From assembly GCA_021648725.1 (NCBI GenBank), contig JAKISF010000011.1, forward strand, positions 1-64,000: a stretch of 64,000 bases of DNA, read 5' to 3'. The notes under the pieces are model-generated. The model searched no databases. It was not told where the DNA came from and worked only from the letters and a program-made list of their open reading frames with translations. A program made the translations under genes and the position numbers. Source of the DNA: Bacteroidales bacterium (GTDB lineage Bacteria; Bacteroidota; Bacteroidia; Bacteroidales; JAADGE01). Numbering within the stretch: the stretch's first letter is position 1; each line of letters starts with the position of its first letter. Below, piece by piece: positions 8,968-42,349 of the stretch.

Positions 8968-8996
8968 ACTTCTGAACATTGTTTAAAAATATTTTA

Positions 8997-9030
8997 AAAA
9001 AAAGATTGTCATTAAAGGCAGTCTTTTTTT
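8997..9030 (+). terminator. Rho-independent terminator after SPOR gene
   Basis: The stem AAAAAAGATTGTC / GGCAGTCTTTTTT (with two G-U pairs) has a 6-base loop and ends in a run of T. It separates the SPOR gene from the regulator that starts at 9059. Confidence 0.7.
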
Positions 9031-9058
9031 ATACTTTTACAATAAATTTAACTTTATT

Positions 9059-10228: not shown

Positions 10229-10234
10229 AACAAA

Positions 10235-10261
10235 CCTGACAGGTGTTTAAAACTTGTCAGG
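10235..10261. terminator. Bidirectional hairpin between convergent genes
   Basis: CCTGACAGGT (10235-10244) pairs with ACTTGTCAGG (10252-10261), allowing one G-U pair, around a 7-base loop. It sits between the converging regulator and DUF5916 genes; no long T run follows. Confidence 0.5.
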
Positions 10262-10269
10262 ATTTGAGC

Positions 10270-26634: not shown

Positions 26635-26667
26635 AAAACTTATATATAATAGTTTTATACCTTGATT

Positions 26668-28761
26668 ATGGTTTTGAGAAAAACTTCGTCATCATTAATA
26701 ATTGGAATAATACTGCTCTGTATCATTATTCTCAGTTTGCTTCACTTTCAGCTATCAAGGATTCTTGACGCCAAGCAGCAATATTTATCTAATTCAATAA
26801 AATTGCTTAAAACAAATGAACTTATTTTACAAAAAACAGATGTTCTTTCCGAACTTTTTTATTTGAATCAGATTAGTTCGCAAAATGAAGCTCTTGCTGC
26901 GGCAGATTTATTTGACTATACATTGTCAATTTTGATTAACGGAGGCAATATATCGGAATCGGGTAATATTGTTTTCATTGAAGTTCCTGATTCTGAAAAG
27001 TTGTTAAAACTAAAAGAAATTGAAAGTAATTGGCAAACATACTTTAAAATATTAAATCGCTTGTCGGAAAGCCCTGAAAATGAAGGTCTGTTAAGGTCGT
27101 TAAAAAAGAACTATAACTCTCTGTATTCATTTATTGAAAATATACAAAGCATCTATAATTCTGATTTGCAAAACAAACAAACATCGGCACTTATTATTAA
27201 TATCATTGCAGTTCTTTTATACATAATATTAAGCATACTACTTTTCATTTTAATAAAACGCCGTTTTGTAAACCCGATAAAATCAGTCGAGTCCGTTATA
27301 GATGATATCACAAAAGGACGCTCTGTTTTTGAGCCTTCAAATTTGAACAATGAATTTTCAGTAATACATAATAAACTTGCAAATTTGTATTACAAAACAA
27401 ATGAAATATCTGCTTTTGTAAAGCAATTAGTTGATGATGATTACGAAGTGAGATTTAAAAAATATAATAAAAAAGACATTCTGGAATTCTCGTTGGTTCA
27501 ACTGAGAAATAAGTTGAAAGCAAATATCGAACTGAACAATAAGCGACAAGAAGAAGAAAAAACAAGACAATGGTTTGCAGAAGGACAAGCAAAATTTAAT
27601 GATATTTTAAGAGAATCTTCTTCGTCAATCAATCTTTTAGCAGAAGCATCCATAAAAAATATTGTTAAGTTTTTTAATGCAGCACAAGGAGGCTTTTTTA
27701 TTTTAAAAGAACAAGCAGAAAAAGTATTTCTTGAACTAAATTCAGCTTTTGCTTATGACCGAATAAAATCCTTAAATAAAATTATTCCTATAGGCGAAGG
27801 CTTAATAGGAATGTGTGCTCTTGAAAAAAATACAATTTGGATAAATAATGTTCCCGAAGATTATATGGAAATAGAATCCGGTTTAGGAGAAGCTCCGCCT
27901 ACAAATATCCTTATTGTTCCTTTAAAAACCGAAGAAAACATTTTGGGAGTTATAGAAATTGCTTCATTTGAAGAATTCACTAAAAATGAAGTTGAATTTA
28001 TTGAAAATATTGCAGAGGATATTGCTTCAACACTTGAAACAACAAAGATTACAGATAAAACTTCAGTATTACTTGATGAATCAAGAAAAAAAACAAAAGA
28101 ACTTGCAGAAAAAGATGCCGAGATAACAGAAAAAATGCAAGAACTGAGAGAAATACAAAAAGAAGCCAAAAGAAGTGAAACCGAAATGTTCGGGTTGATA
28201 AAAGCTGTTGATAAAACATTAATTAAAATTGAAATTACAACAAGAGGGAAAATTACCTCTGTTAATAATCTTTTTGTTAAAACTCTTAATTCTCGAAAAG
28301 AAGAGATCAGAAATGTAAATCTATTTGAGATTATAAAGAATAAAGATGAAGGATTTATAAACAGTATATTGTCAAAAGTAAAAAAAGACGAATCAATTGA
28401 GCAAACACTAACATTTATCTCGAAAAATAATTCTGAAATATTTGTAAAATCTTTATTTACTCCCATAAAAAACGAAAAAGGACAAATTGTAAGAATATTG
28501 ATACTTGCAAGCAATATCAACGAAACAGAAAAACTGACAAAGGAAAAAGCATTTTTAATAACAGAAACAGAAAAACAAAAAGAACAATTGTTAAACATTC
28601 ATGTTAAAACAGAAAAAGATATAAAAGAATATCAAAAGAAAATAGAAAATTTTTCAAAAGAATTGAATTCTTATATTGAAAGAGAAAATAAGATTAAAGA
28701 AAAATTTCAAAGTGAAAAAGACAAAAAATATTTTCAGTGGTTAGGTAGCTTCAAATCATAA
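26668..28761 (+). CDS. Membrane GAF/PAS sensor without output domain
   Basis: A 697-residue receptor. Membrane helices at about 10-27 and 173-195 flank an extracytoplasmic four-helix-like domain, followed by a HAMP-like linker. A GAF domain (about 310-465; IPIGEGLIGMCALEKNTIWI, ILGVIEIASFEEFT) comes next, then a coiled coil, a PAS-like domain (about 515-630) and a long C-terminal coiled coil. There is no kinase, cyclase or phosphatase domain. It sits 7 bases before a phosphatase gene with the same GAF layout, so it probably signals by contact with that protein. ATG 26668 is preferred to the TTG two codons earlier. Confidence 0.8.
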   Translation: MVLRKTSSSLIIGIILLCIIILSLLHFQLSRILDAKQQYLSNSIKLLKTNELILQKTDVLSELFYLNQISSQNEALAAADLFDYTLSILINGGNISESGNIVFIEVPDSEKLLKLKEIESNWQTYFKILNRLSESPENEGLLRSLKKNYNSLYSFIENIQSIYNSDLQNKQTSALIINIIAVLLYIILSILLFILIKRRFVNPIKSVESVIDDITKGRSVFEPSNLNNEFSVIHNKLANLYYKTNEISAFVKQLVDDDYEVRFKKYNKKDILEFSLVQLRNKLKANIELNNKRQEEEKTRQWFAEGQAKFNDILRESSSSINLLAEASIKNIVKFFNAAQGGFFILKEQAEKVFLELNSAFAYDRIKSLNKIIPIGEGLIGMCALEKNTIWINNVPEDYMEIESGLGEAPPTNILIVPLKTEENILGVIEIASFEEFTKNEVEFIENIAEDIASTLETTKITDKTSVLLDESRKKTKELAEKDAEITEKMQELREIQKEAKRSETEMFGLIKAVDKTLIKIEITTRGKITSVNNLFVKTLNSRKEEIRNVNLFEIIKNKDEGFINSILSKVKKDESIEQTLTFISKNNSEIFVKSLFTPIKNEKGQIVRILILASNINETEKLTKEKAFLITETEKQKEQLLNIHVKTEKDIKEYQKKIENFSKELNSYIERENKIKEKFQSEKDKKYFQWLGSFKS

Positions 28762-28768
28762 AGCTGTA

Positions 28769-31369
28769 ATGAGCAACAAAAATCAAAATAAAACTATATT
28801 TATTGTAAGATATACAATCGCAGGATTTATAACAGGTCTGATTTTTCCTGTTTTTGGCTGGTCTTTTTATTTTTTTTTAGATAAATATGCATTTAACGTA
28901 ATTGCTATTAAAACAATGCATATAAATAACCCAATGTATTTTATTCTTGACATAACACCTGTAATTTTAGGAATAATTTCATTTTTTATTGCCCGAAAAA
29001 TAATCAAAACCCGTTCACATTTAATAAACAAAATAAATTCCCAAAAGAAAATTATTAAACAATATGAAAATTTTGCAAAACAAATAGGAGAGGGGGAAAT
29101 TGCAGTTGAAAAAAAAGAATATACAGGTAATTTTGAGACAGATAAAACTTTATTGCTTATGCAAGAAAATTTTATCGAAAAACAAAAAAATGAAAATGAA
29201 TTAAATTGGGTTACATCAGGGAAAGAGAAAGTTGCAGATATTCTGCGTAAACACAATGACCTTAATAACCTCATTAAAGATGTCTTAATCAGCCTTATAG
29301 AATATACCGGCTCTGTTCAAGGAGCATTTTTTTTATTTAATGAAAGTGAAAATAAATTAATTAACTCTTTTTCGTACGCCTACGGAAGAGAAAAACATAT
29401 TGAGCAAAAATTTAAAATTGGAGAGGGAATTGTAGGGCAATCTGCCTATGAAAAAGAATATATATACAGAAGAAATTTGCCTAAAGATTACATTACAATT
29501 TCATCCGGATTATTAGGGGAACAAAGCCCTGGAGCACTAATAACACTACCCCTTATCGGAAATGAAAAAATACAAGGAGTAATTGAAATCGCCGGATTAA
29601 AAAGTGAGTATTCCGAAAAAATTATTTCTTTTCTTATTGAACTGAAAGAAATAATCGGACAAACCCTCTTTAATTTCAAAGCGAACCTGACGACAAAAAA
29701 ACTTTTGGAAGATGCAAGAAACTTAACAGAGCAATTGCAAAAAAATGAACAGGAACTTCGCGAAAATGCAAACAAAATGGAACTAACTCAAATTGAGTTG
29801 GAAAAATCTAATATTGAGTTAGCCTCAAAAATTTCGGAAGTTGAAACAGGGCAAAAAAGATTGCATGCATTATTAGAAAATGCATCAGAAGTTATTACAA
29901 TATATGATACAGACGGAATAGTTCAATATGTCAGCCCTTCCGTAAAAACTATATTAGGATTTACACCCGATGAAATGCTGGGGATTAACCGCTTTGAGAG
30001 GGGTGATAAAATATTACAAGAAGCATTTAACGAACTGTTGATAAACCCCGATATTGAGAAAATCATTGAATATCAATATACTAATAAAAATAAAGAAAGA
30101 GTTTGGCTTGAAACAAGAGGCAGGAATTTATCAGATAACCCTGCAATTAACGGTATTATCTTTAATACACGAGATATTACAATAAAAAAAGAAGTAGAAA
30201 ATGCAAAGAGGCTAAGCAGTGAAATGCAAGCACTGTCTGAAAACAGTCTCGATATGATTGTAAGAGTAGACCAAGCCGGAAATTTCTATTATGCAAATCC
30301 GATGACAGAACAGTTTATCGGGAAAACCTCTCAAGACCTAATACATAAAAACATTAACAATGTTGATCTTGACCAAGAAGTTCTCGGTTTCTTTAAAGAA
30401 ATAATAAATAAAACAAATATTGCAGGAGAAGAAATTCAAGTTGAAACAACATTCATGATTGGTAATAAAAAAAGAATTGTCCAGTTTAACTCAATCCCCG
30501 AAACTGATGAAAAAGGTATTATAAGAACATTCTTATTCGTAGTTCATGACATAACAGAACAAAAAGAAATTGAACTTGAAATTGAAACGAAAAATAAAAA
30601 CATTACAGAAAGTATTAATTATGCCCAAAGAATTCAATCTGCAATTGTACCCGATATAAATATAATTAAAAGATACCTTCCGGAATCATTCGTTTTTTAT
30701 AAACCGAGAGATGTTGTCAGCGGAGACCTTCCTTGGTTCTATGCAAAGGATGACGAAATTTATATTGCAGCTATTGATTGTACAGGTCACGGAGTTCCCG
30801 GAACACTTCTTTCGTTTATAGGTTACTTCTCATTAAACAACATAGTAGGCAAAGAAGAAAACCTGACGACAGGAGAAATACTTGACGAATTACATTATCA
30901 AGTGAGAAGAACATTAAGGCAAGATTCACCCGACTCAAAAGCGAGGGATGGCATGGATATTGCCATATGTAAAATAAATTCAAAGAAAAACACTTTAGAA
31001 TTTGCAGGAGCACATAATGCATTATTTCTTCTAAGAGGAGAAAATGTAACCAGATATAAAGGAGACAGAAAGGCTGTAGGAGGAAAACCTATTCGCAGCA
31101 AAAGAGCTGAAATTGAAAAAAAATTTACAACTTTTAAAATTGATATTGAAAAAAAAGATAAAATATTTATATTTACAGACGGATTACCGGATCAAATAGG
31201 AGGAGAAGAAGGCAGAAAGTACCAAGCCGGTCGAATTCAAAAACAAATCATTGAAAAAAATAATTTTTCAATGACACAATATTATGATTTCTTTGTAACC
31301 CAATTTGAAAACTGGAAAAAAGGTTACAAACAAATTGACGATGTACTTTTAATAGGTATAGAGTTTTAA
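28769..31369 (+). CDS. Membrane GAF/PAS SpoIIE-type (PP2C) phosphatase, SiaA-like role
   Basis: An 866-residue signal-controlled Ser/Thr phosphatase. Two membrane helices (about 10-32, 52-72) precede a GAF domain (about 150-305), a coiled coil, two PAS domains (about 365-480 and 488-600) and a PPM/SpoIIE domain (about 605-866). Metal-binding acids are visible: D653 (VVSGD), the DCTGHGVPG loop, RDGMDIAIC, D804 (FTDGLPDQ) and D857-D858 (DDVLLIGI). SiaB- and SiaC-like genes follow at 11- and 9-base gaps, so its substrate is most likely the SiaC-like phosphoprotein, as for SiaA in Pseudomonas aeruginosa. The sensory part differs from SiaA, which has no GAF or PAS domains. Confidence 0.88.
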   Translation: MSNKNQNKTIFIVRYTIAGFITGLIFPVFGWSFYFFLDKYAFNVIAIKTMHINNPMYFILDITPVILGIISFFIARKIIKTRSHLINKINSQKKIIKQYENFAKQIGEGEIAVEKKEYTGNFETDKTLLLMQENFIEKQKNENELNWVTSGKEKVADILRKHNDLNNLIKDVLISLIEYTGSVQGAFFLFNESENKLINSFSYAYGREKHIEQKFKIGEGIVGQSAYEKEYIYRRNLPKDYITISSGLLGEQSPGALITLPLIGNEKIQGVIEIAGLKSEYSEKIISFLIELKEIIGQTLFNFKANLTTKKLLEDARNLTEQLQKNEQELRENANKMELTQIELEKSNIELASKISEVETGQKRLHALLENASEVITIYDTDGIVQYVSPSVKTILGFTPDEMLGINRFERGDKILQEAFNELLINPDIEKIIEYQYTNKNKERVWLETRGRNLSDNPAINGIIFNTRDITIKKEVENAKRLSSEMQALSENSLDMIVRVDQAGNFYYANPMTEQFIGKTSQDLIHKNINNVDLDQEVLGFFKEIINKTNIAGEEIQVETTFMIGNKKRIVQFNSIPETDEKGIIRTFLFVVHDITEQKEIELEIETKNKNITESINYAQRIQSAIVPDINIIKRYLPESFVFYKPRDVVSGDLPWFYAKDDEIYIAAIDCTGHGVPGTLLSFIGYFSLNNIVGKEENLTTGEILDELHYQVRRTLRQDSPDSKARDGMDIAICKINSKKNTLEFAGAHNALFLLRGENVTRYKGDRKAVGGKPIRSKRAEIEKKFTTFKIDIEKKDKIFIFTDGLPDQIGGEEGRKYQAGRIQKQIIEKNNFSMTQYYDFFVTQFENWKKGYKQIDDVLLIGIEF

Positions 31370-31380
31370 AAATTGTTTAT

Positions 31381-31959
31381 ATGGAAAATGAAATGCAAAA
31401 TAATACAGACTTTAACTTTGTATATGATTTTTACACAAAATTAAAAGACAATAATATAAGCTTTGCTTATGAAGGGGAAATTTCACACGAAATTACAAAA
31501 GCATTCAGCTCTCTTGCAGAAAGCCATATTGCTATTGATAATGAGCCGGGTATTATGCAGAAAAAAGTTTTCCACATTATGGTTGAATCTTTGCAGAACA
31601 TAAGTAAACATTCAGGAGAAAAAATAGATATAAATTCAGCTACCGACGGGCAAGGAATATTCTTTATCAGTAAATCTGAAACTGAATACACAATTACTAC
31701 CGGAAATGTTATTGATAAATATGAAGTTCCCGGATTAAAACTGGTAATAAAAAAGATTAACGGCAGTAATAAAAACTCTTTAAAAGAGCTTTATAAAGAG
31801 CAAATAAAAAAAGGTCGACTTTCCGATAAAGGAGGTGCCGGGCTTGGCTTTATTGATATTGTAAGAAAAACAGGACAGCAACTTATATATTCTTTTTTGG
31901 ACATTAATGAAAAAAAAACATACTTTGTATTAACATCTACAGTTTCTAGAATAAAATAA
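31381..31959 (+). CDS. siaB: SiaB-family protein kinase
   Basis: A 192-residue GHKL-type protein of the SiaB family (formerly DUF6272). It shows an N-box-like helix MVESLQNISKHSG (E69, N73) and a glycine-rich KGGAGLGFIDI (150-160) that would hold ATP. In P. aeruginosa SiaB phosphorylates a conserved threonine of SiaC. The gene lies 11 bases after the phosphatase and 9 before siaC, so kinase, phosphatase and substrate are made together. No anti-sigma or anti-anti-sigma domain is present, which separates it from RsbW-type switches. Confidence 0.87.
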   Translation: MENEMQNNTDFNFVYDFYTKLKDNNISFAYEGEISHEITKAFSSLAESHIAIDNEPGIMQKKVFHIMVESLQNISKHSGEKIDINSATDGQGIFFISKSETEYTITTGNVIDKYEVPGLKLVIKKINGSNKNSLKELYKEQIKKGRLSDKGGAGLGFIDIVRKTGQQLIYSFLDINEKKTYFVLTSTVSRIK

Positions 31960-31968
31960 ATAATAATT

Positions 31969-32358
31969 ATGCGAGTAATAAAAATTGAAGGCACAGACGA
32001 TACTCCTCAGGTTACATTAGACGCAAACCCTGAGAATCCTTTTATGGAAATTTCCGGAAGATCACTTCCCGAAGACGTTGTAGCATTTTACGACCCGATA
32101 TTGGAATGGTTGGATGAATATGCTGAAAATCCGCTGGAAAAAACAGTTTTGAATATTAAATTAGAATATTTCAATACTGCATCTTCGAAACTTTTATTAG
32201 ATATTCTTCTAAAGCTTGAAGATATGAATGATGCAGGAAAAGATGTATTAGTCAGATGGCATTTCCCTGATGATGATGAGGATATGGAAGAAGCAGGAGA
32301 AGAATATGAAGATATTGTCGAAGTTCCTTTTGAGCAGGTCAGTTATTCAATAGATTAA
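31969..32358 (+). CDS. siaC: SiaC-family regulatory phosphoprotein (DUF1987)
   Basis: A 129-residue acidic protein of the SiaC family. The segment YFNTASSKLLLDIL contains T70, aligned by eye with the phosphorylated Thr68 of P. aeruginosa SiaC. An acidic loop (DDDEDMEEAGEEYED) lies near residue 105, as in relatives. In Pseudomonas, unphosphorylated SiaC activates the diguanylate cyclase SiaD; here no GGDEF gene is present, so the target differs or is encoded elsewhere. A 99-base gap separates it from the transporter gene. Confidence 0.87.
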   Translation: MRVIKIEGTDDTPQVTLDANPENPFMEISGRSLPEDVVAFYDPILEWLDEYAENPLEKTVLNIKLEYFNTASSKLLLDILLKLEDMNDAGKDVLVRWHFPDDDEDMEEAGEEYEDIVEVPFEQVSYSID

Positions 32359-32457
32359 AGCATTGCGTACATTTTAAATCAGTTTTTTGTTGTTTATAAT
32401 GTGCGGAATATATTTAATACTCTCTTTTTCTATTAAAAATTTACTAATTTCTAAAAA

Positions 32458-35400
32458 ATGAGTGAAGAAATACTAAAGGCTCTGATGCAACTTTTTGCAA
32501 TCATTGCAAAACAAGATGACGGTGTTGTTGCACAAGAAGAAAGTTTTGTCAGAACATTTCTTGCGTCCCAACTTAGCAAAACCCAAGTAACCGAATACTT
32601 AGATTTATTCATTCAAAATACTGAAAAAGAGGAAAAAAAGAAACAACGAGCGGAGAAGAAAAAAGGAACAGACAGCGGGCAGGTTAAAATGGTTGACTCT
32701 GTCAGGGTTATGGGAATTTGTAGAAAAATTAACAAAACCCTTAACCATAAACAAAAAGTTATTGTTTTAGCTCGTCTTTTTGAGCTCATAAATACCGAAA
32801 AGAAATTAACCGAGCAACGAATGGAGATTATATCTGTTGTTGCCGATGCGTTTAACTTAACACCGGAAGAATACTCTGAAATTGAAAACTTTGTTATAAA
32901 AGATGATTACAGAGAATTAGATTCGGAGTTTATTCTTATTATTAACGACAAAGAACAATCACAAAAAAAATCACAATATATTCAATCGGAGAGTTTACAC
33001 GGCAGTGTAATAATTCTTCATTTAAAAAGTGCAGACCTTTTCTTCCTGAAATATACAGGCAAGCAAGATGTTTATTTAAACAGTACTGCTGCATATAATA
33101 ATCGTATTTATCTGTTTGCTCCCGGCAGTGTGATTAAGCTTCCTAAAGGGAAACCCATTCATTATAGTGATATTGTTGCAACATTTATGCAAGACCAGGA
33201 AATTTCAGGTCTTTCGTTTATTGTAAGTGATGTTCAGTATAAGTTTAAAACCGGCGACATAGGTATAAGAGATATAAGCTTTTCGGTTGATCACGGAAAA
33301 CTTGTAGGCATAATGGGTGCAAGCGGTTCAGGTAAAACAACAATGGTTAATACCTTATCCGGAATTACAACACCTTCTCAAGGGACCGTAAAGATTAACG
33401 GTATAGACCTTCACCATAATAAAGGAGAGCTCGAAGGTGTTATAGGGTATATTCCGCAAGATGATTTACTTATTGAGGAACTTACCGTTTTTCAAAATTT
33501 ATATTATAACGCAAAACTTTGTTTTAAAGACCATAGCGAAGATGAGCTTAGTGCTCTTGTTGTTAAAACATTAAAAGATTTGGGACTTTACGAGAAAAAA
33601 GATCTCAAAGTCGGAGACCCGATGAATAAAACTATCAGCGGCGGTCAAAGAAAAAGACTGAATATTGCTCTTGAACTTATCAGAGAACCTTCAATTCTTT
33701 TTGTTGATGAACCTACTTCCGGTTTGTCATCTCGCGACTCTGAAAATGTAATGGAGCTGTTGAGTGAATTAACACAAAAAGGAAAACTGATTTTTGTTGT
33801 AATTCACCAGCCGTCATCAGACATATATAAAATGTTTGACAGAATGTTGATATTAGATCAAGGCGGTTATATGGTTTACTACGGAAATCCGGTTGAAGCA
33901 GTTGTTCACTTTAAAGCCATTGATAATCAGATTAATGCTGATGTCGGAGAGTGCGGAATTTGCGGTAATGTTACTCCTGAATTGATTTTTGATATAATTG
34001 AAGCAGAGGTAGTGGATGAGTTCGGACAATATACCGAAGTTCGTAAAATTTCACCTGTTGAGTGGGAAAAACATTACCAAGAAAAAGTTCCTAAAGAAGA
34101 TATTGAAGAAATTAATGACGAACCTCCTGCAACTTTAAGTATCCCGGGTTGGTTTAAACAATTTAAAATATTCCTTACAAGAGATTTGCTGTCAAAAGTC
34201 AGTAATACTCAATATATTGTATTAAATTTACTGGAAGCACCTTTGCTCGGATTTATTTTAGCATTTTTAATCAGATATATATCCGATCCTACATCCTCAA
34301 CGTATATCTTTTTTGATAACGAAAATATTCCGCCTTATATATTTATGAGTATTGTTGTTGCTTTATTTTTAGGATTAACAGTAAGTGCAGAAGAAATTTT
34401 CAGAGATCGGAAAATTTTAAAACGTGAAAAATTCTTACATCTCAGTCGTTCCTCATATTTAACCGCTAAGATTTCAATCCTTATCGTTATTTCTGCAATA
34501 CAAGCGATTCTTTTTGTTTTAATCGGCAACTTTATTCTAGGAATTCAAGGAATGTATTTTGAATATTGGTTAGTACTGTTCTCTACCTTTGTATTTGCAA
34601 ACTTTATGGGATTAAATATTTCATCAGCTTTTAATTCTGCTGTTACAATATATATTTTAATTCCGTTATTAATGATACCGCAAATGGCTCTCGGCGGTGC
34701 TATGTTCAGTTTTGATAAATTAAACAGGCTCATCGGAAGTGTTGATAAGGTGCCGCTTATTGCCGATATTATGGCTTCAAGGTGGGCATACGAAGGTTTA
34801 ATGGTTCAACAATTTAAAGAAAATAAATTTGAAAAGCAATACTATATTTACAATCAAGTAAAAAGCACGGCAAATTTCAAACAAGATAAATTAATCCCTA
34901 AATTATCAGAAAGTATTGAGTCTTTTGAAATATTACAAGATGAAATAAATGATAAAGTCGGGGATAAAGATTCAATTGTTGAAATTCAAGCAATGGAACT
35001 CGCACTTCTTAAAAATGAAATTTCAAAAGAAAACAGAGAGATATTCAAATTAATAAATAAACTAAAAATATATAAAGCCGGAAAAGGTGTTAAAAAAATA
35101 AATTTTGATGTGTTTTTTGACGGTTTTGATGCATTAACTGCTGATAAAGGTGCAATTGAAGAAAAGCTGATTATACCGGACAACCTTATCAATACACTAA
35201 ACATAAAAGATTATGATGTTGAAGAGCACGGGTATGAGTTAATGGATAGGTTAGAGGTAATTAAAGATTTTTATTTAGCTGTATACTCAAGTGCAAATGA
35301 GTTAAAAGAAGATCTTATTAACTTCCAAGACCAACAAAAACCCAAATATTATGTAACGTTCAGAGATAAATTTCATAATGAACATTTGGATGATATCGTA

Positions 35401-35706
35401 AGAAATATATATGAAAAAAATAAAATATTACGATATAAAGACAAGTTAATAAGACAAGAAGAACCGATATATTTGGAGCCTGACGATTCTAACTTCATAG
35501 GAATACGTTCTCACTTTTATGCACCGAACAAATATTTTATGGGAAAATATTACAGTACGTTTTGGTTTAATGTTATTTTTATTTGGGCCATGTCAATTTT
35601 ATTATACATTCCTTTATATTATGACCATTTAAGAAAAATTATCGGTTTTTTCGGTAATTTAAAGTTTAAGAAAAAAAATAACAATAACATTGTGTCAGAC
35701 AGTTAG
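32458..35706 (+). CDS. TerB-ABCG fusion transporter with long C-terminal extension
   Basis: A 1082-residue fusion protein. A TerB-like helical domain (about 1-150) is followed by a small beta-rich domain (about 170-245) and an ABC ATPase with Walker A GASGSGKT (287-294), signature ISGGQRKRL and Walker B ILFVDEPTSGLSS. An ABC2-type membrane part of about six helices (about 580-775) follows, then a mostly soluble helical extension (about 780-1040) and one last membrane helix (about 1040-1062). The ABCG order (ATPase before membrane part) suggests a homodimeric exporter. TerB domains occur in membrane-stress systems. Substrate is unknown; the position beside siaC and before envelope proteins suggests an envelope role. 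Confidence 0.85.
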   Translation: MSEEILKALMQLFAIIAKQDDGVVAQEESFVRTFLASQLSKTQVTEYLDLFIQNTEKEEKKKQRAEKKKGTDSGQVKMVDSVRVMGICRKINKTLNHKQKVIVLARLFELINTEKKLTEQRMEIISVVADAFNLTPEEYSEIENFVIKDDYRELDSEFILIINDKEQSQKKSQYIQSESLHGSVIILHLKSADLFFLKYTGKQDVYLNSTAAYNNRIYLFAPGSVIKLPKGKPIHYSDIVATFMQDQEISGLSFIVSDVQYKFKTGDIGIRDISFSVDHGKLVGIMGASGSGKTTMVNTLSGITTPSQGTVKINGIDLHHNKGELEGVIGYIPQDDLLIEELTVFQNLYYNAKLCFKDHSEDELSALVVKTLKDLGLYEKKDLKVGDPMNKTISGGQRKRLNIALELIREPSILFVDEPTSGLSSRDSENVMELLSELTQKGKLIFVVIHQPSSDIYKMFDRMLILDQGGYMVYYGNPVEAVVHFKAIDNQINADVGECGICGNVTPELIFDIIEAEVVDEFGQYTEVRKISPVEWEKHYQEKVPKEDIEEINDEPPATLSIPGWFKQFKIFLTRDLLSKVSNTQYIVLNLLEAPLLGFILAFLIRYISDPTSSTYIFFDNENIPPYIFMSIVVALFLGLTVSAEEIFRDRKILKREKFLHLSRSSYLTAKISILIVISAIQAILFVLIGNFILGIQGMYFEYWLVLFSTFVFANFMGLNISSAFNSAVTIYILIPLLMIPQMALGGAMFSFDKLNRLIGSVDKVPLIADIMASRWAYEGLMVQQFKENKFEKQYYIYNQVKSTANFKQDKLIPKLSESIESFEILQDEINDKVGDKDSIVEIQAMELALLKNEISKENREIFKLINKLKIYKAGKGVKKINFDVFFDGFDALTADKGAIEEKLIIPDNLINTLNIKDYDVEEHGYELMDRLEVIKDFYLAVYSSANELKEDLINFQDQQKPKYYVTFRDKFHNEHLDDIVRNIYEKNKILRYKDKLIRQEEPIYLEPDDSNFIGIRSHFYAPNKYFMGKYYSTFWFNVIFIWAMSILLYIPLYYDHLRKIIGFFGNLKFKKKNNNNIVSDS

Positions 35707-35764
35707 TTGGACATATCAAAAACAAAAACAATGAAGTATATTTTTTTGATATTTAAATTTTTAA

Positions 35765-35772
35765 TACCTTTG
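35765..35772 (+). promoter_or_regulatory. Possible -7 element for lipoprotein gene
   Basis: TACCTTTG matches TAnnTTTG, 31 bases before the ATG at 35804. It suggests the lipoprotein pair can be expressed apart from the transporter. Confidence 0.4.
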
Positions 35773-35803
35773 ATTGTTAAATAGCCTGAACAGATTGAAA
35801 ATT

Positions 35804-36700
35804 ATGGCAAAAAAGATATTGTTTTTTATAGTAATCACAGCAATTTTTACTTCCTGCGGAGGCGGAGGTGATGATACAATTGATGTTCCGATTGGTGATG
35901 ATACCACAAAACGTGTAGAAATTAATCCGGAGAAAATAAACGCATTAATTGAAAGTTTTCCTTCTCCGATTGAAATGGCAGCAACAATTGAAGACATGCA
36001 AGTGCCTTATTCTAAGAAGAATTTGGTTCCTACCGAAAACGTAGGAGATTTTGAAGTAAATTTTGAAAAAGCTCTCGGTTTAGGAATGTTAAGTGCTGAT
36101 TTAGGATACCTTAATGTTTACGGCAGAAAAAATGCAATTGTTGAATATTTAACTTCAATAAAAAGACTTGCTGATGCCTTAGATGTTGACCAATTTTTTG
36201 ATTTTCAAACATTAAAAAGGTTAGCAGCAAACAGTTCAGACCTTCAAGAATTAATGTATCTTTCTGTTACGAGCTATCATGACATGGATGAGCATTTAAG
36301 GAAAACAAGAAGAAGTGATTTAAGTGCATTAATGATTACGGGTGTTTGGCTTGAAGGTCAATATCTTGCGGGAAAAGTCAATCAATTTAGAGCTGACAAA
36401 AGAACAGAAGAAATAATTGCAGGACAAAAAGATATTTTAAAAGAACTATTAGATGTGTTGGATTTCTTTAAAGATAAAGCAAGATTTACAGAGATGAATA
36501 AACAATTTCATGAACTGTTATTACTTTACGGTAATGTTGTTATTGAAATACACGAGGGGGAAAATAAGATTATTATAGAGGAAGACGGTACAACCGTGAT
36601 TGACCCGGGAGAATATACAACAATAGAATATACACAAGAAGATTTAGATAAAATAATAAATAAAATAATTCAAATTCGTAACAATTTAATCTCACTATAA
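35804..36700 (+). CDS. Putative lipoprotein of unknown function
   Basis: A 298-residue exported protein with lipobox FTSC (Cys18) followed by Gly4-Asp2. The rest is predicted mostly helical, with an N-terminal half containing NVGDFEVNFEKALGLGMLSADLGY and a C-terminal coiled, acidic end. That stretch resembles helical lipoproteins found elsewhere in Bacteroidota, but no domain is named with confidence. An upstream TTG in frame (35774) is less likely because it would bury the signal peptide. It overlaps the next gene by one base (TAATG) and lies 97 bases after the transporter. Confidence 0.75.
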   Translation: MAKKILFFIVITAIFTSCGGGGDDTIDVPIGDDTTKRVEINPEKINALIESFPSPIEMAATIEDMQVPYSKKNLVPTENVGDFEVNFEKALGLGMLSADLGYLNVYGRKNAIVEYLTSIKRLADALDVDQFFDFQTLKRLAANSSDLQELMYLSVTSYHDMDEHLRKTRRSDLSALMITGVWLEGQYLAGKVNQFRADKRTEEIIAGQKDILKELLDVLDFFKDKARFTEMNKQFHELLLLYGNVVIEIHEGENKIIIEEDGTTVIDPGEYTTIEYTQEDLDKIINKIIQIRNNLISL

Positions 36701-37161
36701 TGAAGAAAATAGCAATTCTTATAGCAATAACAAGTTTTTTCATTTTTGCACCGAAAGAAGAAGCAAAAGCTCAATGTAAACAACAAAGGGTATATCAATG
36801 TGCAAGACAAGGAGGTAATGCTATTTATCTGCGCGATTTTAACACAAAGTTAAGAGCTGTCAGATCATCAGGCAGTATTAACGGAACAAAATGGCCTGTT
36901 GTTTTAAACAGAGGGACCAGATATAGGTTTATTTTATGTACTCCTCCGGGATACGGAAATGATGTTAAATTAACCCTTTTTGACAGCAGAAACCCGGAAA
37001 CAAAACCTTGGAATTCAACGGAAAAAAGCGGAAATGATAAGTTTGACTTTATCTGCAAACGTTCGGGTGTTTACTATGTTTCAATAAGGTTTAAAGAGGG
37101 AAGGGGGAAAAGAAAAACTTGTGCCGTAGGAATTCTGTCTTTTGTCGGAAAAAATCAATAA
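36700..37161 (+). CDS. Small secreted cysteine-containing protein of unknown function
   Basis: A 153-residue exported protein with a signal peptide (about 1-24, ending AKAQ). The mature part is basic and beta-rich with several cysteines (CKQQ, YQCAR, FILCTP, FICKR, KTCAV) that could form disulfides. The pattern WPVVLNRGTRYRFILCTPPG...SGVYYVSIRF resembles a small carbohydrate- or stress-protein-like beta-sandwich, but I cannot name a family. The ATG overlaps the stop of the preceding lipoprotein gene, so the two are translationally coupled and may act together at the envelope. Confidence 0.75.
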   Translation: MKKIAILIAITSFFIFAPKEEAKAQCKQQRVYQCARQGGNAIYLRDFNTKLRAVRSSGSINGTKWPVVLNRGTRYRFILCTPPGYGNDVKLTLFDSRNPETKPWNSTEKSGNDKFDFICKRSGVYYVSIRFKEGRGKRKTCAVGILSFVGKNQ

Positions 37162-37181: not shown

Positions 37182-37213
37182 AAAAAAGTCGATTTTTAAA
37201 AATCGACTTTTTT
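37182..37213. terminator. Bidirectional palindromic terminator
   Basis: A perfect 32-base palindrome (16-base arms, centre GATTTTTAAAAATC) with A and T runs on either side. It serves both the secreted-protein gene and the end of the dcw operon after ftsZ. Confidence 0.9.
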
Positions 37214-37243: not shown

Positions 37244-38722
37244 TTAATCAGCTTTATCATGTAAATAAGAATTGTTTTCGTTCAAATTAATTTCGCCGTT
37301 TTCGTCAGAAAGTGTGAAACGAGAATATTGCCTGTTGTCAGGGAAGTTATTTTGATCAATTATTATCCCTTTTCTCTTGTATGCAGGTACATTTTCCAAA
37401 TCATTTAGGTGTTTTAAGTAATTATTAACTTGTAACTTTTTAGAGTTTGTTTGCTTTTCCTCAAAAGTTATATCATTAACTTGCGGGGTTTCAACAAATT
37501 CAAACTCAGAATCATTTTCTTTCTTTTCTTCGTCATTAACGGCATTATTGAAAAAAACAATATCTTTTTCTTCTTCCGTTTTACTGACTGTTTTAACGGT
37601 TATTTTCTGGGGTTTTTCGTAGTTTGAGAAGAAGTCATCAGTTTCTGCAACTTCCTTTTGCGTATTTTCTTTTCCTATTTCAATTATTTCTTTTTCTGTT
37701 TTTGTTTCTTCTTTTGAGTTTAGCATTCGGTGAGAATACAGTTCAGGTATGTCATGAGTTCCGAAACCTGTTGCAATAACGGTTACAGCTATCTTATCTC
37801 CTAATTCCTCGTCAATATTACTTCCCCAAATTAAATCGGAACGATTTCCGGCATCTTTCTGAACATATTCATTTATGAAGCTTATTTCATCTAATGTTGC
37901 TATGTTTTTGCCGGAAGAAATATTTAGGAGTATGTTACTTGCTCCTTTTATATCTGTATTATCCAATAAAGGTGAATTTAGTGCATCTTTAACCGCAACT
38001 TTTGCACGATTCTCCCCTTCTGCAACGCCTGTTCCCATTAAGGCAATTCCGCTGCTTTTCATAACTGTTTTAACATCAGCAAAATCTACATTAACGTGTC
38101 CTTCAATGGTAATAATCTCTGCTATTCCTTTTGCTGCAACAGTCAGTACTTCATCAGCTTTTCCTAAGGCATCTGTTATTGCAAGGTTACCGTATATTTC
38201 TCGAATTTTTTCATTATTAATGATTAAGAGGGCATCAACATGTTTTTCCATTTCTGCAATACCTTGAATTGCCGACTCAATTCTTTTGCTGCCTTCGTAT
38301 CTGAACGGAATAGTTACAATTCCTACAGTCAGAATGCCGAGTTCTTTTGCGGCTTCAGCAATAACGGGTGCACCTCCGGTTCCTGTTCCGCCTCCCATTC
38401 CTGCGGTTATGAATACCATTTTTGTACCTGCTCCGAGAACTGTTTTAACATCTTCAATGCTTTCAATTGCAGCTTCTTTTCCTACATCGGGTTTATTTCC
38501 TGCTCCTAAACCTTCAGTAAGTGTTTTCCCGAGTTGAATTTTTGTTCTGACAGGGCTTTTTTCAAGTGCCTGGATATCAGTATTAGCAATAATAAAATCA
38601 ACACCTTCAATTCCTTGACGGAGCATGTGATTTACGGCATTACTTCCTCCTCCGCCGACTCCGAGGACTTTTATAATTGAAGCAAAATTTGTCGGTAAAT
38701 CAAAGGGCAATAAATCGTCCAT
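37244..38722 (-). CDS. ftsZ: Cell division protein FtsZ
   Basis: Tubulin-like GTPase that forms the division ring. The GTP-binding core (about 15-330) shows GVGGGGSNAVNHM, the tubulin signature GGGTGTGGAPV and the T7-loop NVDFADVKTVM. A long, acidic, variable linker (about 335-460) follows, then the Bacteroidota-type tail. ATG 38722 (MDDLLPFDLP) matches the usual family start; an in-frame ATG at 38779 would add 19 residues. Last gene of the dcw operon, 76 bases after ftsA, followed by a terminator. Confidence 0.97.
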   Translation of the reverse strand: MDDLLPFDLPTNFASIIKVLGVGGGGSNAVNHMLRQGIEGVDFIIANTDIQALEKSPVRTKIQLGKTLTEGLGAGNKPDVGKEAAIESIEDVKTVLGAGTKMVFITAGMGGGTGTGGAPVIAEAAKELGILTVGIVTIPFRYEGSKRIESAIQGIAEMEKHVDALLIINNEKIREIYGNLAITDALGKADEVLTVAAKGIAEIITIEGHVNVDFADVKTVMKSSGIALMGTGVAEGENRAKVAVKDALNSPLLDNTDIKGASNILLNISSGKNIATLDEISFINEYVQKDAGNRSDLIWGSNIDEELGDKIAVTVIATGFGTHDIPELYSHRMLNSKEETKTEKEIIEIGKENTQKEVAETDDFFSNYEKPQKITVKTVSKTEEEKDIVFFNNAVNDEEKKENDSEFEFVETPQVNDITFEEKQTNSKKLQVNNYLKHLNDLENVPAYKRKGIIIDQNNFPDNRQYSRFTLSDENGEINLNENNSYLHDKAD

Positions 38723-38798
38723 AATAATTAGTTTTGTATTGTTATTAATCTTTTTTTGTTTAATATAAGTTGACATCAAATATTTAATACGGCTATAC

Positions 38799-40100
38799 TT
38801 ATTCTATTACAGTATCGTCATCATCAAAAAAGTTAATAGCTTTTTGTTTTGCTGATTGAGAAATTTTATCAAAGATTCCTTTTATTCCTAAACCGTTTTT
38901 ATTTGTTTTTTCTTTTTTTCTTTTCTTTTTATTCGGTTGCTCTGCCTTTTCAATATTTTCAAATCCGAGAATTACTAAGCCTACTGCCGTTGAAAGTTTC
39001 GGGCTGTTTACTCTTGCTCCTCCCGAAGATGCAGTCATAGGAGGTTTTGAAAGTTTAACATCAAGCCCCGTAACAAATTTCATTAATTGAGGTAATTTAT
39101 CCAATAATGAACCGCCTCCGGTAAGGGCAATACCTGCTGCTAATTTATCTCTGTATCCGGAGTTTATAATCTCAAAGTTAATTATGTTAATAATTTCTTC
39201 CATTCTGGCTTGAATAACTTTTGAAAGTTCAACCAAAGAAATTTCTTTTGAATCTCTTCCGCTAATCCCCGGTATTACGGCTAAACTGTCTTTTTTTGCA
39301 AATTCGCTTAAAGCGGTTCCGCAATCTGTTTTTAATTCTTCGGCATGTTTATGTAAAATTTTATATGCTTCTTTTACATCTTTTGTTATAACATCACCTC
39401 CGAACGGAATTACGGCAGTGTGTCTTAAAATGCCTTCATAATAAATTGCTAAATCGGTTGTGCCTCCGCCTATATCAACTAATGCAACACCGGCTTCTTT
39501 TTCGTCTTCTGTTAAAACAGCTTTTGATGAAGCAATAGGTTCAAGGTATAAATCGTTTACTTTAATGTCTGAAAGCTCGACACAACGTTTAATGTGCTTT
39601 GCTGCGGTTGTTTCGCCAATTATTATATGATAATTTCCGGATAATATTTTGCCTATTCTTCCTACCGGTTCATCAATACCGTTTTCTTTATCAATTGAAT
39701 AGTTTTGCGGAATAACATCGAGAATCTCCTCGTTTGCTTCAAGCGACAGATTTCTTATTTCTTGGGTCATTCTTTCAACATCATCTTTTGATATAATATT
39801 TTCGGGCGACTTTATTACGATAGAATGGTTGTTGTGCACACTTTTAATGTGATGCCCTGCAATACCGATAAATGCGGATGTAAATTCGATGTCTGATGTG
39901 TTTTCTGCTTTTTGAACAGCCTCTTTTATTGCTTTAGAAACTGTTTCGATGTTTTGCACAACCCCCATTTTAACACTTTTTTGCGGAGTAGGTACTGTTC
40001 CTTTTGCTAAAATTCTGATTCTCCCGTTTTCGTCACGCTCACCTGCAAGAGCTACAATTTTAGTTGTTCCGATGTCAATTGCTGTTATTATTTCTTTCAT
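38799..40100 (-). CDS. ftsA: Cell division protein FtsA
   Basis: Actin-like ATPase that ties FtsZ to the membrane and recruits later division proteins. The 433-residue protein shows AIDIGTTKIVALAGE (phosphate 1), the SHS2 1C domain (about 85-165), VDIGGGTTDLAIY (phosphate 2) and GIALTGGGSLLDKL (adenosine). A basic linker rich in Lys (390-410) precedes the C-terminal helix, which is presumably the membrane anchor (GIKGIFDKISQSAKQKAINFF, about 410-430). Lies between ftsQ and ftsZ as expected. Confidence 0.96.
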   Translation of the reverse strand: MKEIITAIDIGTTKIVALAGERDENGRIRILAKGTVPTPQKSVKMGVVQNIETVSKAIKEAVQKAENTSDIEFTSAFIGIAGHHIKSVHNNHSIVIKSPENIISKDDVERMTQEIRNLSLEANEEILDVIPQNYSIDKENGIDEPVGRIGKILSGNYHIIIGETTAAKHIKRCVELSDIKVNDLYLEPIASSKAVLTEDEKEAGVALVDIGGGTTDLAIYYEGILRHTAVIPFGGDVITKDVKEAYKILHKHAEELKTDCGTALSEFAKKDSLAVIPGISGRDSKEISLVELSKVIQARMEEIINIINFEIINSGYRDKLAAGIALTGGGSLLDKLPQLMKFVTGLDVKLSKPPMTASSGGARVNSPKLSTAVGLVILGFENIEKAEQPNKKKRKKEKTNKNGLGIKGIFDKISQSAKQKAINFFDDDDTVIE

Positions 40101-40150
40101 GTGTTTAAAATTTACTGAGTAATTAATATTGTGTGAGTTTGCCTGTTTTT

Positions 40151-40930
40151 TTATTTGTTGCTTTTAGTACAAACAATTTGATTTTTATATTTCAGATTAA
40201 TATATTTATACTTTCTCCAACCTTCTTTTTTCAGGATATTTATGTAAAAATGCTTTAAATATTTTATTTTGTTTTCATAATTATAAATGTCGCCCAAGAG
40301 TACAATGTGGTTTCCTACTTTCGGTATTAGTTCATATTCGTTATTTTGTTTTATGTAAATCTGTTCTGTTTGGGCTTTTAAAAATTCATCCTCTGATAAT
40401 ACTTTTGCAATTTTATAAATTTCTTGAATATGCTTTGTAATCGTTGTATCTTTGCCGACAGTAATTCTGTTGTTTTTATATTTAAAATTTATATTTCCGT
40501 TTGCAACAAGTACCCTGGCACTTCCTATCTTAGAAACAGGCATTAGCGAGCCTTCTTTATCTATATAAAAGTTTTTGCCGGTTGTCGGCATTATTCTTAC
40601 AATAGGCACTTTTTGTTTTAATTTCACGACTAAAATACCATTAATTTTCTTAAAAACTTCAGCATTTTTGACGGAAGGGTGAGATTCTATCTTTTTTTCT
40701 AATGATGACAAGTTAACTATACTAATAGGGCTTCCTAATAAGTTTTTGTATTCTTTAAAAATAATCTTTTTTATGTCTGATTCATCAATAATGCATTCTT
40801 TTTCATCAGCTGAGATTTCAACTTCTACTGCTTTGCAAATTGTTTTGTCGGAAAAAATAATATAAGCCCCGATTATTAAAATAATCAGTACAATTCCGGA
40901 TATGCTTATTATTTTGCTTTTTCTGTTCAT
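40151..40930 (-). CDS. ftsQ: Cell division protein FtsQ
   Basis: Bitopic inner-membrane protein linking early and late division proteins. One membrane helix (about 7-28) is followed by a POTRA-like domain (about 35-110; IESHPSVKNAEVFKKINGILVVKLKQKVP) and a beta domain. The 259-residue length is usual for Bacteroidota FtsQ, which diverges strongly from proteobacterial forms, so position between murC and ftsA is part of the evidence. It starts 9 bases after murC. Confidence 0.9.
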   Translation of the reverse strand: MNRKSKIISISGIVLIILIIGAYIIFSDKTICKAVEVEISADEKECIIDESDIKKIIFKEYKNLLGSPISIVNLSSLEKKIESHPSVKNAEVFKKINGILVVKLKQKVPIVRIMPTTGKNFYIDKEGSLMPVSKIGSARVLVANGNINFKYKNNRITVGKDTTITKHIQEIYKIAKVLSEDEFLKAQTEQIYIKQNNEYELIPKVGNHIVLLGDIYNYENKIKYLKHFYINILKKEGWRKYKYINLKYKNQIVCTKSNK

Positions 40931-40939
40931 TTATTTAAA

Positions 40940-42349
40940 TCAGCAATATTGTTTTAATGTTTTTTTTATCGGGTCAACAAATCTGTCAATATCTCCGGCA
41001 CCTATAGTTAAAAGTATTTCCGGTTTTTTATTTTTAATTGTTTCTAAAAGCTCTTCTTTTTTTATCAGTTTTTTGTTTTTAAGGTTCACTTTGTCAAAAA
41101 TTAATTTTGATGTTACTCCGGGTATTGACTTCTCTCTTGCAGGATAAATTTCTAACAGAATTAATTCGTCGAGTAAACTTAGGCTTTGAGCAAATTCTTC
41201 TGCAAAATCACGAGTTCTGGTAAAAAGGTGAGGCTGAAAAATGCCTGTTATATGTTTTTCTTTATAAATACCTCTTATCGAATTTATAAAACTTTTCAAT
41301 TCTTCCGGGTGATGTGCATAATCGTCAATATAAATAATTTCGGGTGTATTAACAATATATTCAAAGCGTCTTTTAACTCCTGTCCAAGACATTAATGCCT
41401 TTCTGATGTTATTTTCTGAAACTCCTTGAATGTCAGCAACAGATATTGCTGCAACAGCATTTTCAATATTTAAATTTCCCGGTATTTGGATTGTAACATC
41501 TTTTATTGTTTTACCGGGACATACAAGGTCAAATGTGCTTTTGTTTGCGTTAGTTTTAATGTTTTCGGCATAATAATCTGCTTTTTCATTTAAAGAATAG
41601 CTGAAAACATTTACCGGAAAATTTGCTTTTTCGATTTCAACACCTTTTTTTATGATTAAATAACCGCATTTATGAATTTGACTTGTAAATTTTCCGAATG
41701 TTTTTTTCAAATCGTTGATGTCTTCGTAAATATCTAAATGATCTTCATCAACAGAAGTAATAATGCCGCACCAAGGATGCAGACTTAAAAAAGAACGATC
41801 AAATTCATCGGCTTCTGTTACTGCATATTCAGCTTTATTCGGGGTTTTGCTTAATATTAAATTTGAATTGTAATTTTTTGAAATTCCGCCGAGAAACGCA
41901 TTGAAATTTACTGCGGACTGTTTAAAAATATGTGCAATTATTGTTGATACGGATGTTTTTCCGTGTGTTCCCGCAACAGCAACCGTTTTATATTGATTTG
42001 TTATTAAACCCAAAATTTCAGAGCGTTTTTTTATTTCGTAACCTTCATTTATAAACCAATTTAATTCTGAGTGATTTTTTGGAATAGCAGGTGTATAAAC
42101 AATAAGAACTTCTTCTTTTTTTAATGATTTAATTTTTTTGTTTATCAGATTTACAGCATCTTCAAAATGGATGTTTATTCCTTCTTTTATTAAATTATCG
42201 GTTATATTGCTTTGCGTTTTGTCGTAACCTGACGTTTCTATGCCTGTTTGATTAAAATATCTTGCAAGAGAACTCATTCCTATTCCGCCTATTCCGATGA
42301 AATATGTTGCCTTAATTGATTTTAATATGTCATTCTTTTTTTTTGACAT
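40940..42349 (-). CDS. murC: UDP-N-acetylmuramate--L-alanine ligase
   Basis: Adds L-Ala to UDP-MurNAc, the first peptide step of peptidoglycan precursor synthesis. The 469-residue Mur ligase has the N-terminal GIGGIGMSSLARYF, the ATP loop VAGTHGKTSVSTI, TEADEFDRSFL and DDYAHHPEELKS. Its ATG directly follows the murG stop (42350), with no gap, which points to coupled translation. Three-domain length is normal. Confidence 0.97.
   Translation of the reverse strand: MSKKKNDILKSIKATYFIGIGGIGMSSLARYFNQTGIETSGYDKTQSNITDNLIKEGINIHFEDAVNLINKKIKSLKKEEVLIVYTPAIPKNHSELNWFINEGYEIKKRSEILGLITNQYKTVAVAGTHGKTSVSTIIAHIFKQSAVNFNAFLGGISKNYNSNLILSKTPNKAEYAVTEADEFDRSFLSLHPWCGIITSVDEDHLDIYEDINDLKKTFGKFTSQIHKCGYLIIKKGVEIEKANFPVNVFSYSLNEKADYYAENIKTNANKSTFDLVCPGKTIKDVTIQIPGNLNIENAVAAISVADIQGVSENNIRKALMSWTGVKRRFEYIVNTPEIIYIDDYAHHPEELKSFINSIRGIYKEKHITGIFQPHLFTRTRDFAEEFAQSLSLLDELILLEIYPAREKSIPGVTSKLIFDKVNLKNKKLIKKEELLETIKNKKPEILLTIGAGDIDRFVDPIKKTLKQYC

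Follow-up and report, generated by a model that had tools for sequence, protein, structure and literature searches.

A SiaABC-like phosphorylation switch in a Bacteroidales bacterium with a co-encoded TerB-ABCG transporter as candidate effector

What does a SiaABC-type phosphorylation switch control in a bacterium where its known target is missing? The question is raised by a locus in a window of 64,000 nucleotides from a Bacteroidales bacterium (assembly GCA_021648725.1, contig JAKISF010000011.1, positions 1 to 64,000), the window being the whole stretch of DNA that was analysed. In Pseudomonas, SiaB phosphorylates SiaC, SiaA dephosphorylates it and dephosphorylated SiaC binds its partner, as outlined in two studies (PMC8457831, PMC7647112). 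So far its workings are established for a single output, a diguanylate cyclase. The answer favoured here, with moderate confidence, is that this locus encodes a SiaABC system for threonine phosphorylation that acts on the TerB-ABCG transporter (TerB-ABC) encoded alongside and not on a diguanylate cyclase. The locus consists of seven genes at 26662-37161, all on the + strand:

26662-28761, + strand: membrane receptor with GAF_2 and PAS_9 domains (Pfam) and two transmembrane helices (simple hydropathy scan)
28720-28752, + strand: C-terminal motif of the receptor, DKKYFQWLGSF, conserved and DKKYxxWLxxF-like
28769-31369, + strand: SiaA-like membrane phosphatase with GAF_2, two PAS and SpoIIE/PP2C domains (Pfam) and two transmembrane helices by hydropathy
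31381-31959, + strand: SiaB-family kinase (DUF6272, 127.2 bits; NCBIfam NF038262, 153.9 bits, cut-off 85)
31969-32358, + strand: SiaC (DUF1987; PF09345, 131.8 bits, cut-off 24.5), with the T70 codon at 32176-32178
32458-35706, + strand: TerB-ABCG half-transporter (ABC_tran and ABC2_membrane, Pfam) with a TerB-like and beta region, a nucleotide-binding domain and a membrane domain
35804-36700, + strand: lipoprotein, mostly helical in its model (predicted local distance difference test, pLDDT, 79.1)
36700-37161, + strand: small exported protein (signal peptide by visual inspection), no family

The intergenic gaps from the receptor through to the transporter are 7, 11, 9 and then 99 bases, and at 36700 the start of the small exported protein overlaps the stop of the lipoprotein. 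The receptor starts at 26662 in the call of open reading frames (ORFs), while an earlier reading made from the letters of the DNA alone (the sequence-only reading) took the ATG at 26668. Judged from the sequence, the seven genes are likely to be on one transcript. The sequence-only reading had described the first four as closely spaced genes for a membrane receptor without output domain, a membrane GAF/PAS/PP2C phosphatase, a SiaB-like kinase and a SiaC-like protein with a conserved threonine, T70. This description holds: the order, the strand and the gaps of 7, 11 and 9 are as given, Pfam domains and hydropathy agree for the two membrane proteins (no output domain of the receptor was found with Pfam), and the kinase and SiaC score above the cut-offs listed.

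The residues on which the switch would depend are conserved. SiaB aligns to 6kko_A (E 3e-11), and its residues E69, N73, H77, G152, G154, G156 and D159 are invariant in 35/35 aligned proteins. As read off that alignment, E69 would be the counterpart of E61 in P. aeruginosa SiaB, given as the predicted catalytic glutamate in PMC7647112. For SiaC, the alignment is to 6kko_C, the SiaC chain from P. aeruginosa (E 1.6e-14); residue 70 is a threonine within LEYFNTASSK, N69 and T70 are invariant in all 26 aligned rows, and YFNT is kept. For P. aeruginosa SiaC, PMC8457831 describes T68 as contacting SiaD and its phosphorylation as blocking the binding. The phosphatase matches the crystal structure of the SiaA PP2C domain (6k4e_A, E 2.3e-23, PDB sequence match), and D653, D670, D804, D857 and D858 are invariant in 30/30 aligned proteins, so that the metal-binding aspartates are kept. 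With its catalytic residues intact the switch looks functional. Scores for the NCBIfam equivalogs are below the cut-offs for SiaA (153.9 against 700 bits), SiaB (68.5 against 225) and SiaC (82 against 150), and the three proteins are therefore regarded as family members and not as equivalogs of the Pseudomonas proteins.

The genome is 3.24 Mb in size and 98.1% complete, with profile matches for 19 SiaC, 11 SiaB and 27 SpoIIE-type PP2C domains. No GGDEF match was found anywhere in it when the whole genome was searched. Among 79 genomes of the order, this one included, GGDEF occurs in a single genome (G059), which has no SiaC match, and genomes of this set without a GGDEF match carry up to 21 SiaC copies. 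A hidden GGDEF partner was rejected on these grounds. The sequence-only reading was thus right that SiaD is missing, at the locus as well as elsewhere in the genome, and the SiaC-bound GGDEF protein encoded elsewhere that would have counted against it did not turn up. The analysis went beyond it in three respects: 18 further SiaC domains in this genome, a second pairing of SiaC and TerB-ABC, and the lack of a SiaD-type docking stalk in this genome.

The linkage of siaC to the transporter gene is conserved, and so is the order of the genes. A scan of named genomes for TerB-ABC gave 52 loci, of which 41 (L021-L061) contain true homologues; 11 matches to the ATPase only were dropped. SiaC is encoded near TerB-ABC in 35/41 loci, in three of them on the opposite strand (L041, L052, L054). 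Loci without a nearby SiaC are L053, L055, L056 and L057 together with L059 and L060, which are cut by contig ends. SiaC is encoded in all six genomes represented by L053-L057 and L059, and in that of L054 also beside the transporter gene. The gap between siaC and the transporter gene has a median of 71 bp (range 11-356) in 32 same-strand loci. The other genes of the operon recur in the 41 loci, several of which are cut by contig ends: the lipoprotein was found in 34, and the small exported protein and the phosphatase in 30 each.

Presence and absence across genomes give the same picture. TerB-ABC (at E <= 1e-60) was found in 47 of the 79 genomes of the order and SiaC in 48, and the two sets are identical save for one genome with SiaC only (G069). 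Counted by family, 27 have both, one has SiaC only, none has TerB-ABC only and 31 have neither (Fisher p 5.8e-16, with families that are not independent). When coordinates were compared by hand, siaC lies beside TerB-ABC in at least 43 of the 47 genomes with the transporter; in the other four, the contig ends inside the transporter (G016) or there is no siaC in the stretches read (G017, G024, G029). A sample of 395 genomes from the phylum, again including this one, had SiaC in 22 and TerB-ABC with a TerB end in six; matches in G359, G367 and G425 that cover only about residues 243-806 were left out of the count. Five of these six genomes have SiaC, always beside the transporter (this genome, G129, G133, G230 and G270). 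For G133, G230 and G270 one SiaC match each was found among the candidates scored (11/15, 11/12 and 11/11), this only SiaC found lies 67-94 bp from the transporter ORF, and there was no GGDEF match. The neighbourhood survey and the conservation in relatives that the sequence-only reading had called for therefore came out in favour of the linkage, which is kept also in three genomes of a distant family. Its suggestion that SiaC controls another output, possibly the transporter, is supported at the gene level by the conserved linkage and the missing GGDEF match.

The second pairing involves another clade of TerB-ABC, which in 11 loci (L075-L085) is convergent to a different siaC-siaB pair; the layout in L093 is similar. 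In several of these loci the transporter also has a homologue of the lipoprotein or a small exported ORF next to it. The SiaC tree has a supported group of 16 (98/91) that consists of 15 convergent rows, L041, L052 and L054 included, and one of this genome's own SiaC (L009). The 37 same-strand rows are in another branch, which also holds six other rows (94/86). Deep branches are weak in this tree because it is built on only 128 columns. In the transporter tree (short search), a clade of 14 includes 12 siaC-convergent rows, and a clade of 41 is made up of 36 same-strand rows, L041, L052 and three unlinked rows. Taken together the two trees place a clade-1 transporter next to a clade-2 SiaC in L041 and L052. 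L093 has a clade-2 SiaC beside a transporter of yet another clade.

A different type of partner is found where TerB-ABC is lacking. In 11 loci without TerB-ABC from other lineages (L098-L101, L103-L106, L108-L110), the gene adjacent to siaC encodes a common helix, [KR]-x-[SG]-D-x-x-Q-x-K-L. A profile of 79 positions built from nine of them then found this stalk in L106 (5e-22) and L108 (1.1e-26), and no other ORF in the examined loci scored better than E 0.3. The best PDB match of the profile is P. aeruginosa SiaD (7e6g_A), in which this stalk is the part that binds SiaC. The stalk is fused to GGDEF in L099 and L105 (distant genomes of family f88), to a histidine kinase in L098 (Pfam) and, by sequence similarity, L108, and to PP2C in L104 (Pfam) and, likewise by similarity, L103. 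It has tails resembling membrane-bound parts, as judged by eye, in L109 and L110 and stands alone in L100, L101 and L106. Not every SiaC has a stalk or TerB-ABC partner nearby, since no stalk gene was seen near siaC in L102 and L107. In L100, siaC and the stand-alone stalk have as a neighbour a 1272-residue protein (8051-11866) that contains three stretches of AAA ATPase, and a similar large ORF occurs in L106.

Within the 79 genomes the stalk is strong in G069 alone (7.3e-27), the sole genome with SiaC and without TerB-ABC. The Bacteroidales genome studied here has no match at E <= 0.1. Weak matches, with E 0.0014 or worse and at most 20.7 bits, occur in 13 other genomes; the 1.7-3.2 kb examined around each of these 16 matches showed neither siaC nor siaB, and the [SG]DxxQ string is in the matched stretch of two of them (L118, off the core columns, and L127). 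A hidden SiaD-type stalk in the operon or the genome was rejected at the sensitivity of the 79-position profile. That the conserved receptor tail is a copy of the SiaD motif was also considered; the stalk profile did not pick it up.

The candidate output itself has the architecture of an ABCG half-transporter. Its model (pLDDT 82.5, predicted template modelling score 0.67) has the ABCG fold, with Z 32.2 to 8i3d_A, 531 residues aligned over 250-1060 and a root mean square deviation of 4.5. Hydropathy gives five membrane helices, and the helices of the model suggest a sixth. Ahead of the nucleotide-binding domain are about 245 extra residues, the TerB-like and beta region, where the TerB domain scores 23.3 bits, just below the Pfam cut-off of 24.4. 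An insert of about 290 residues lies between the fifth and the last membrane helix of the model. The pair C499/C502, a C-x-x-C after the ATPase domain, is invariant in 29/29 aligned transporters.

These elements can be combined into a mechanism. Sensing of a signal would fall to the receptor together with the GAF/PAS portion of the phosphatase. By analogy with Pseudomonas, SiaB would phosphorylate SiaC at T70, the PP2C phosphatase would take the phosphate off again, and unphosphorylated SiaC would be the binding form. SiaC may then bind the cytosolic TerB-like and beta regions in front of the nucleotide-binding domain and alter the activity of the transporter, the contact and its site being our proposal, while the lipoprotein and the small exported protein would serve the transporter on the outside. 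TerB-ABC is considered the most likely partner of SiaC because of the position of the genes and the exclusion of other partners. It has been suggested by Chen et al. (PMC8457831) that DUF1987 proteins commonly modulate adjacent proteins. A broader proposal, to which we give about even chances, treats SiaC as a plug-in adaptor. Different bacteria would connect this one switch to GGDEF enzymes, histidine kinases, phosphatases or membrane proteins, with a transferable stalk helix as the connector. In Bacteroidia the wiring would have changed, in no fewer than two SiaC/TerB-ABC clades, so that reversible phosphorylation of the threonine directly gates an ABCG-type transporter.

Several observations weigh against the transporter as the effector. 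TerB-ABC is not beside siaC in L053, L055, L056 and L057, nor are the second TerB-ABC copies in f69 (L111, L112), G017, G024 and G029. No siaC was found in the 16-18 kb read around this genome's own TerB-ABC copies on contigs C34 and C16 and the clade-2 copy of G057 (L090), and G431 in the phylum sample has TerB-ABC with no SiaC match. The convergent loci L075-L085 were fetched because coordinates put a siaC nearby, and the co-occurrence counts lack phylogenetic independence. No stalk motif is present in TerB-ABC; the string TDSGQVK in the transporter was rejected as one, being chance-like and present in 1/29 orthologues. The stalk profile gives P. aeruginosa SiaD itself no more than 22.1 bits, so that a stalk as diverged as that of SiaD is detectable and a more diverged one could be missed. 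Furthermore, the SiaD-contact positions of SiaC fail to part stalk-linked from transporter-linked SiaC cleanly, and the stalk-linked SiaC of L109 and L110 share R29, I31 and K79 with clade 2. Position 107 does separate the groups (A in 51/52 against 0/11) and position 10 does so roughly. An inversion of charge at the SiaC interface was rejected as proof of a new partner, because position 103 is D, E or Q in 11/11 stalk-linked SiaC and because L109 and L110 resemble clade 2. The row group labelled as f88 GGDEF in the alignments also contained the P. aeruginosa row and two rows linked to histidine kinases.

Among the other explanations, the one that survives best is that SiaC acts on a separate, unnamed effector and that the transporter is co-transcribed only through a shared condition. 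The TerB-ABC genes without siaC are in line with it. So are the 18 further SiaC domains of this genome: the stretches read around them contain no TerB-ABC, which points to other targets of SiaC. Co-transcription alone, however, predicts neither the convergent or divergent layouts of siaBC and TerB-ABC (L075-L085, L093, L041, L052) nor the co-occurrence at the genome level, and this genome has no stalk effector or GGDEF match to offer instead. We regard this explanation as unlikely. Still less probable is that the transporter is the sensor, with substrate flux or the periplasmic lipoprotein signalling through TerB-ABC to the receptor and phosphatase and thereby setting the phosphorylation of SiaC. 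BceAB-type transporters signal in this way to their kinases, and the large insert on the presumed periplasmic side, the two exported partners and the membrane location of the receptor and phosphatase of the same operon would suit such a role. However, no homologue of the phosphatase or receptor was detected in 10/11 of the convergent loci L075-L085 (12-16 kb read), the exception being L085, where a PP2C protein is matched upstream of the transporter at a distance of about 3.8 kb, which makes siaBC and not a sensor the closest partner of TerB-ABC. The canonical arrangement, in which SiaC drives a diguanylate cyclase encoded elsewhere, has the same SiaA, SiaB and SiaC families and the siaC-GGDEF order of the distant f88 genomes in its favour, and is refuted by the missing GGDEF and stalk matches unless the enzyme lies in the small missing part of the genome, which is very improbable.

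Other features of the locus are of interest in their own right. Homologues of the receptor stand upstream of the phosphatase in many related loci, and a motif similar to the receptor end was found within seven residues of the C-terminus in 19 other loci; in the loci examined, no other ORF of more than 300 residues had a DKKYxxWLxxF-like match within 40 residues of its end. The conserved tail is possibly a docking tail. The lipoprotein probably starts at the ATG at 35804 and not at the TTG at 35774, since Cys18 counted from there is invariant in 29/29 aligned rows. Foldseek searches of PDB and BFVD with its model gave nothing at E <= 0.001, its sequence had no PDB match below E 0.27, and 29 members showed no consistent Pfam family; the attempt to assign a function by fold or family was dropped. 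In the related loci listed, a homologue of the small exported protein again follows the gene for the lipoprotein. L094 has CheR and CheB genes (Pfam) at 1329-2781, upstream of a receptor-phosphatase-siaB-siaC-transporter operon, and similar ORFs occur in L095 and L096.

Downstream of the operon there is one further feature:

37182-37213, listed for the - strand: terminator-like hairpin of 14 pairs, A+T-rich and the longest in the scan

This hairpin is likely to mark the 3' end of the operon between convergent genes. Being near-palindromic, it may act on both strands. The convergent genes on the - strand (37244-42349), which we take to be ftsZ, ftsA, ftsQ and murC, end at the same hairpin. Between siaC and the transporter gene the scan listed no such hairpin on the + strand. 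The scan as a whole counts for little, because it gave 7 sites against 4.7 (sd 2.3) in shuffles.

Elsewhere in the genome the SiaC copies are arranged in various ways. The phosphorylation site is T in nine of the genome's 19 SiaC and S in ten. On contig C24 (L013:7850-11195), a protein with two SiaB domains is followed by five tandem siaC genes with NS for NT. On contig C6 there is a single protein of 511 residues with two SiaB domains and one SiaC domain (L014:8127-9662), and a separate stretch (L017:9459-14561) has two siaC genes followed by four short similar proteins, presumably hemerythrins, and a PP2C protein.

The operon offers a candidate second output for the SiaABC switch in a conserved genetic setting, and an open-access literature search found nothing joining the switch to an ABC transporter. 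There is a natural comparison within one phylum, with the switch beside GGDEF in one family and beside the transporter in families without a GGDEF match, which suggests that one and the same switch can be connected to different outputs in different bacteria. Gating of the transporter by SiaC, if it occurs, would mean that a small phospho-adaptor controls an ABC transporter at the post-translational level. This would also go some way towards explaining why many SiaC copies are kept in genomes without a GGDEF match.

Compared with the SiaABCD system of P. aeruginosa (PMC8457831, PMC7647112), a membrane PP2C phosphatase, a SiaB-family kinase and SiaC are likewise encoded together, and the phospho-threonine in a Y-x-N-T loop, the PP2C aspartates and the SiaB glutamate are conserved. 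Unlike in that system, there is no match to SiaD, GGDEF or a SiaD-type stalk here, and there are GAF/PAS sensors, a separate receptor and an ABC transporter gene after siaC. The transporter resembles the ABCG half-transporters ABCG1, ABCG2, ABCG5 and AtABCG25 in having the nucleotide-binding domain before the membrane domain, in its ABC motifs and, by structure alignment, in its fold. It differs from them in its N-terminal extension, in its insert and in being encoded in an operon with a lipoprotein and an exported protein. RsbVWU is a partner switch of the same type: a kinase and a PP2C phosphatase act on a small phosphorylatable protein, and binding selects the output. The partner switches HsbA/HsbD and BgrV/BgrR, named in PMC8457831, share this layout and this choice of output by binding. 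Unlike in HsbA/HsbD, BgrV/BgrR and RsbVWU, no sigma factor or diguanylate cyclase is encoded alongside here, and the proposed output is a transporter.

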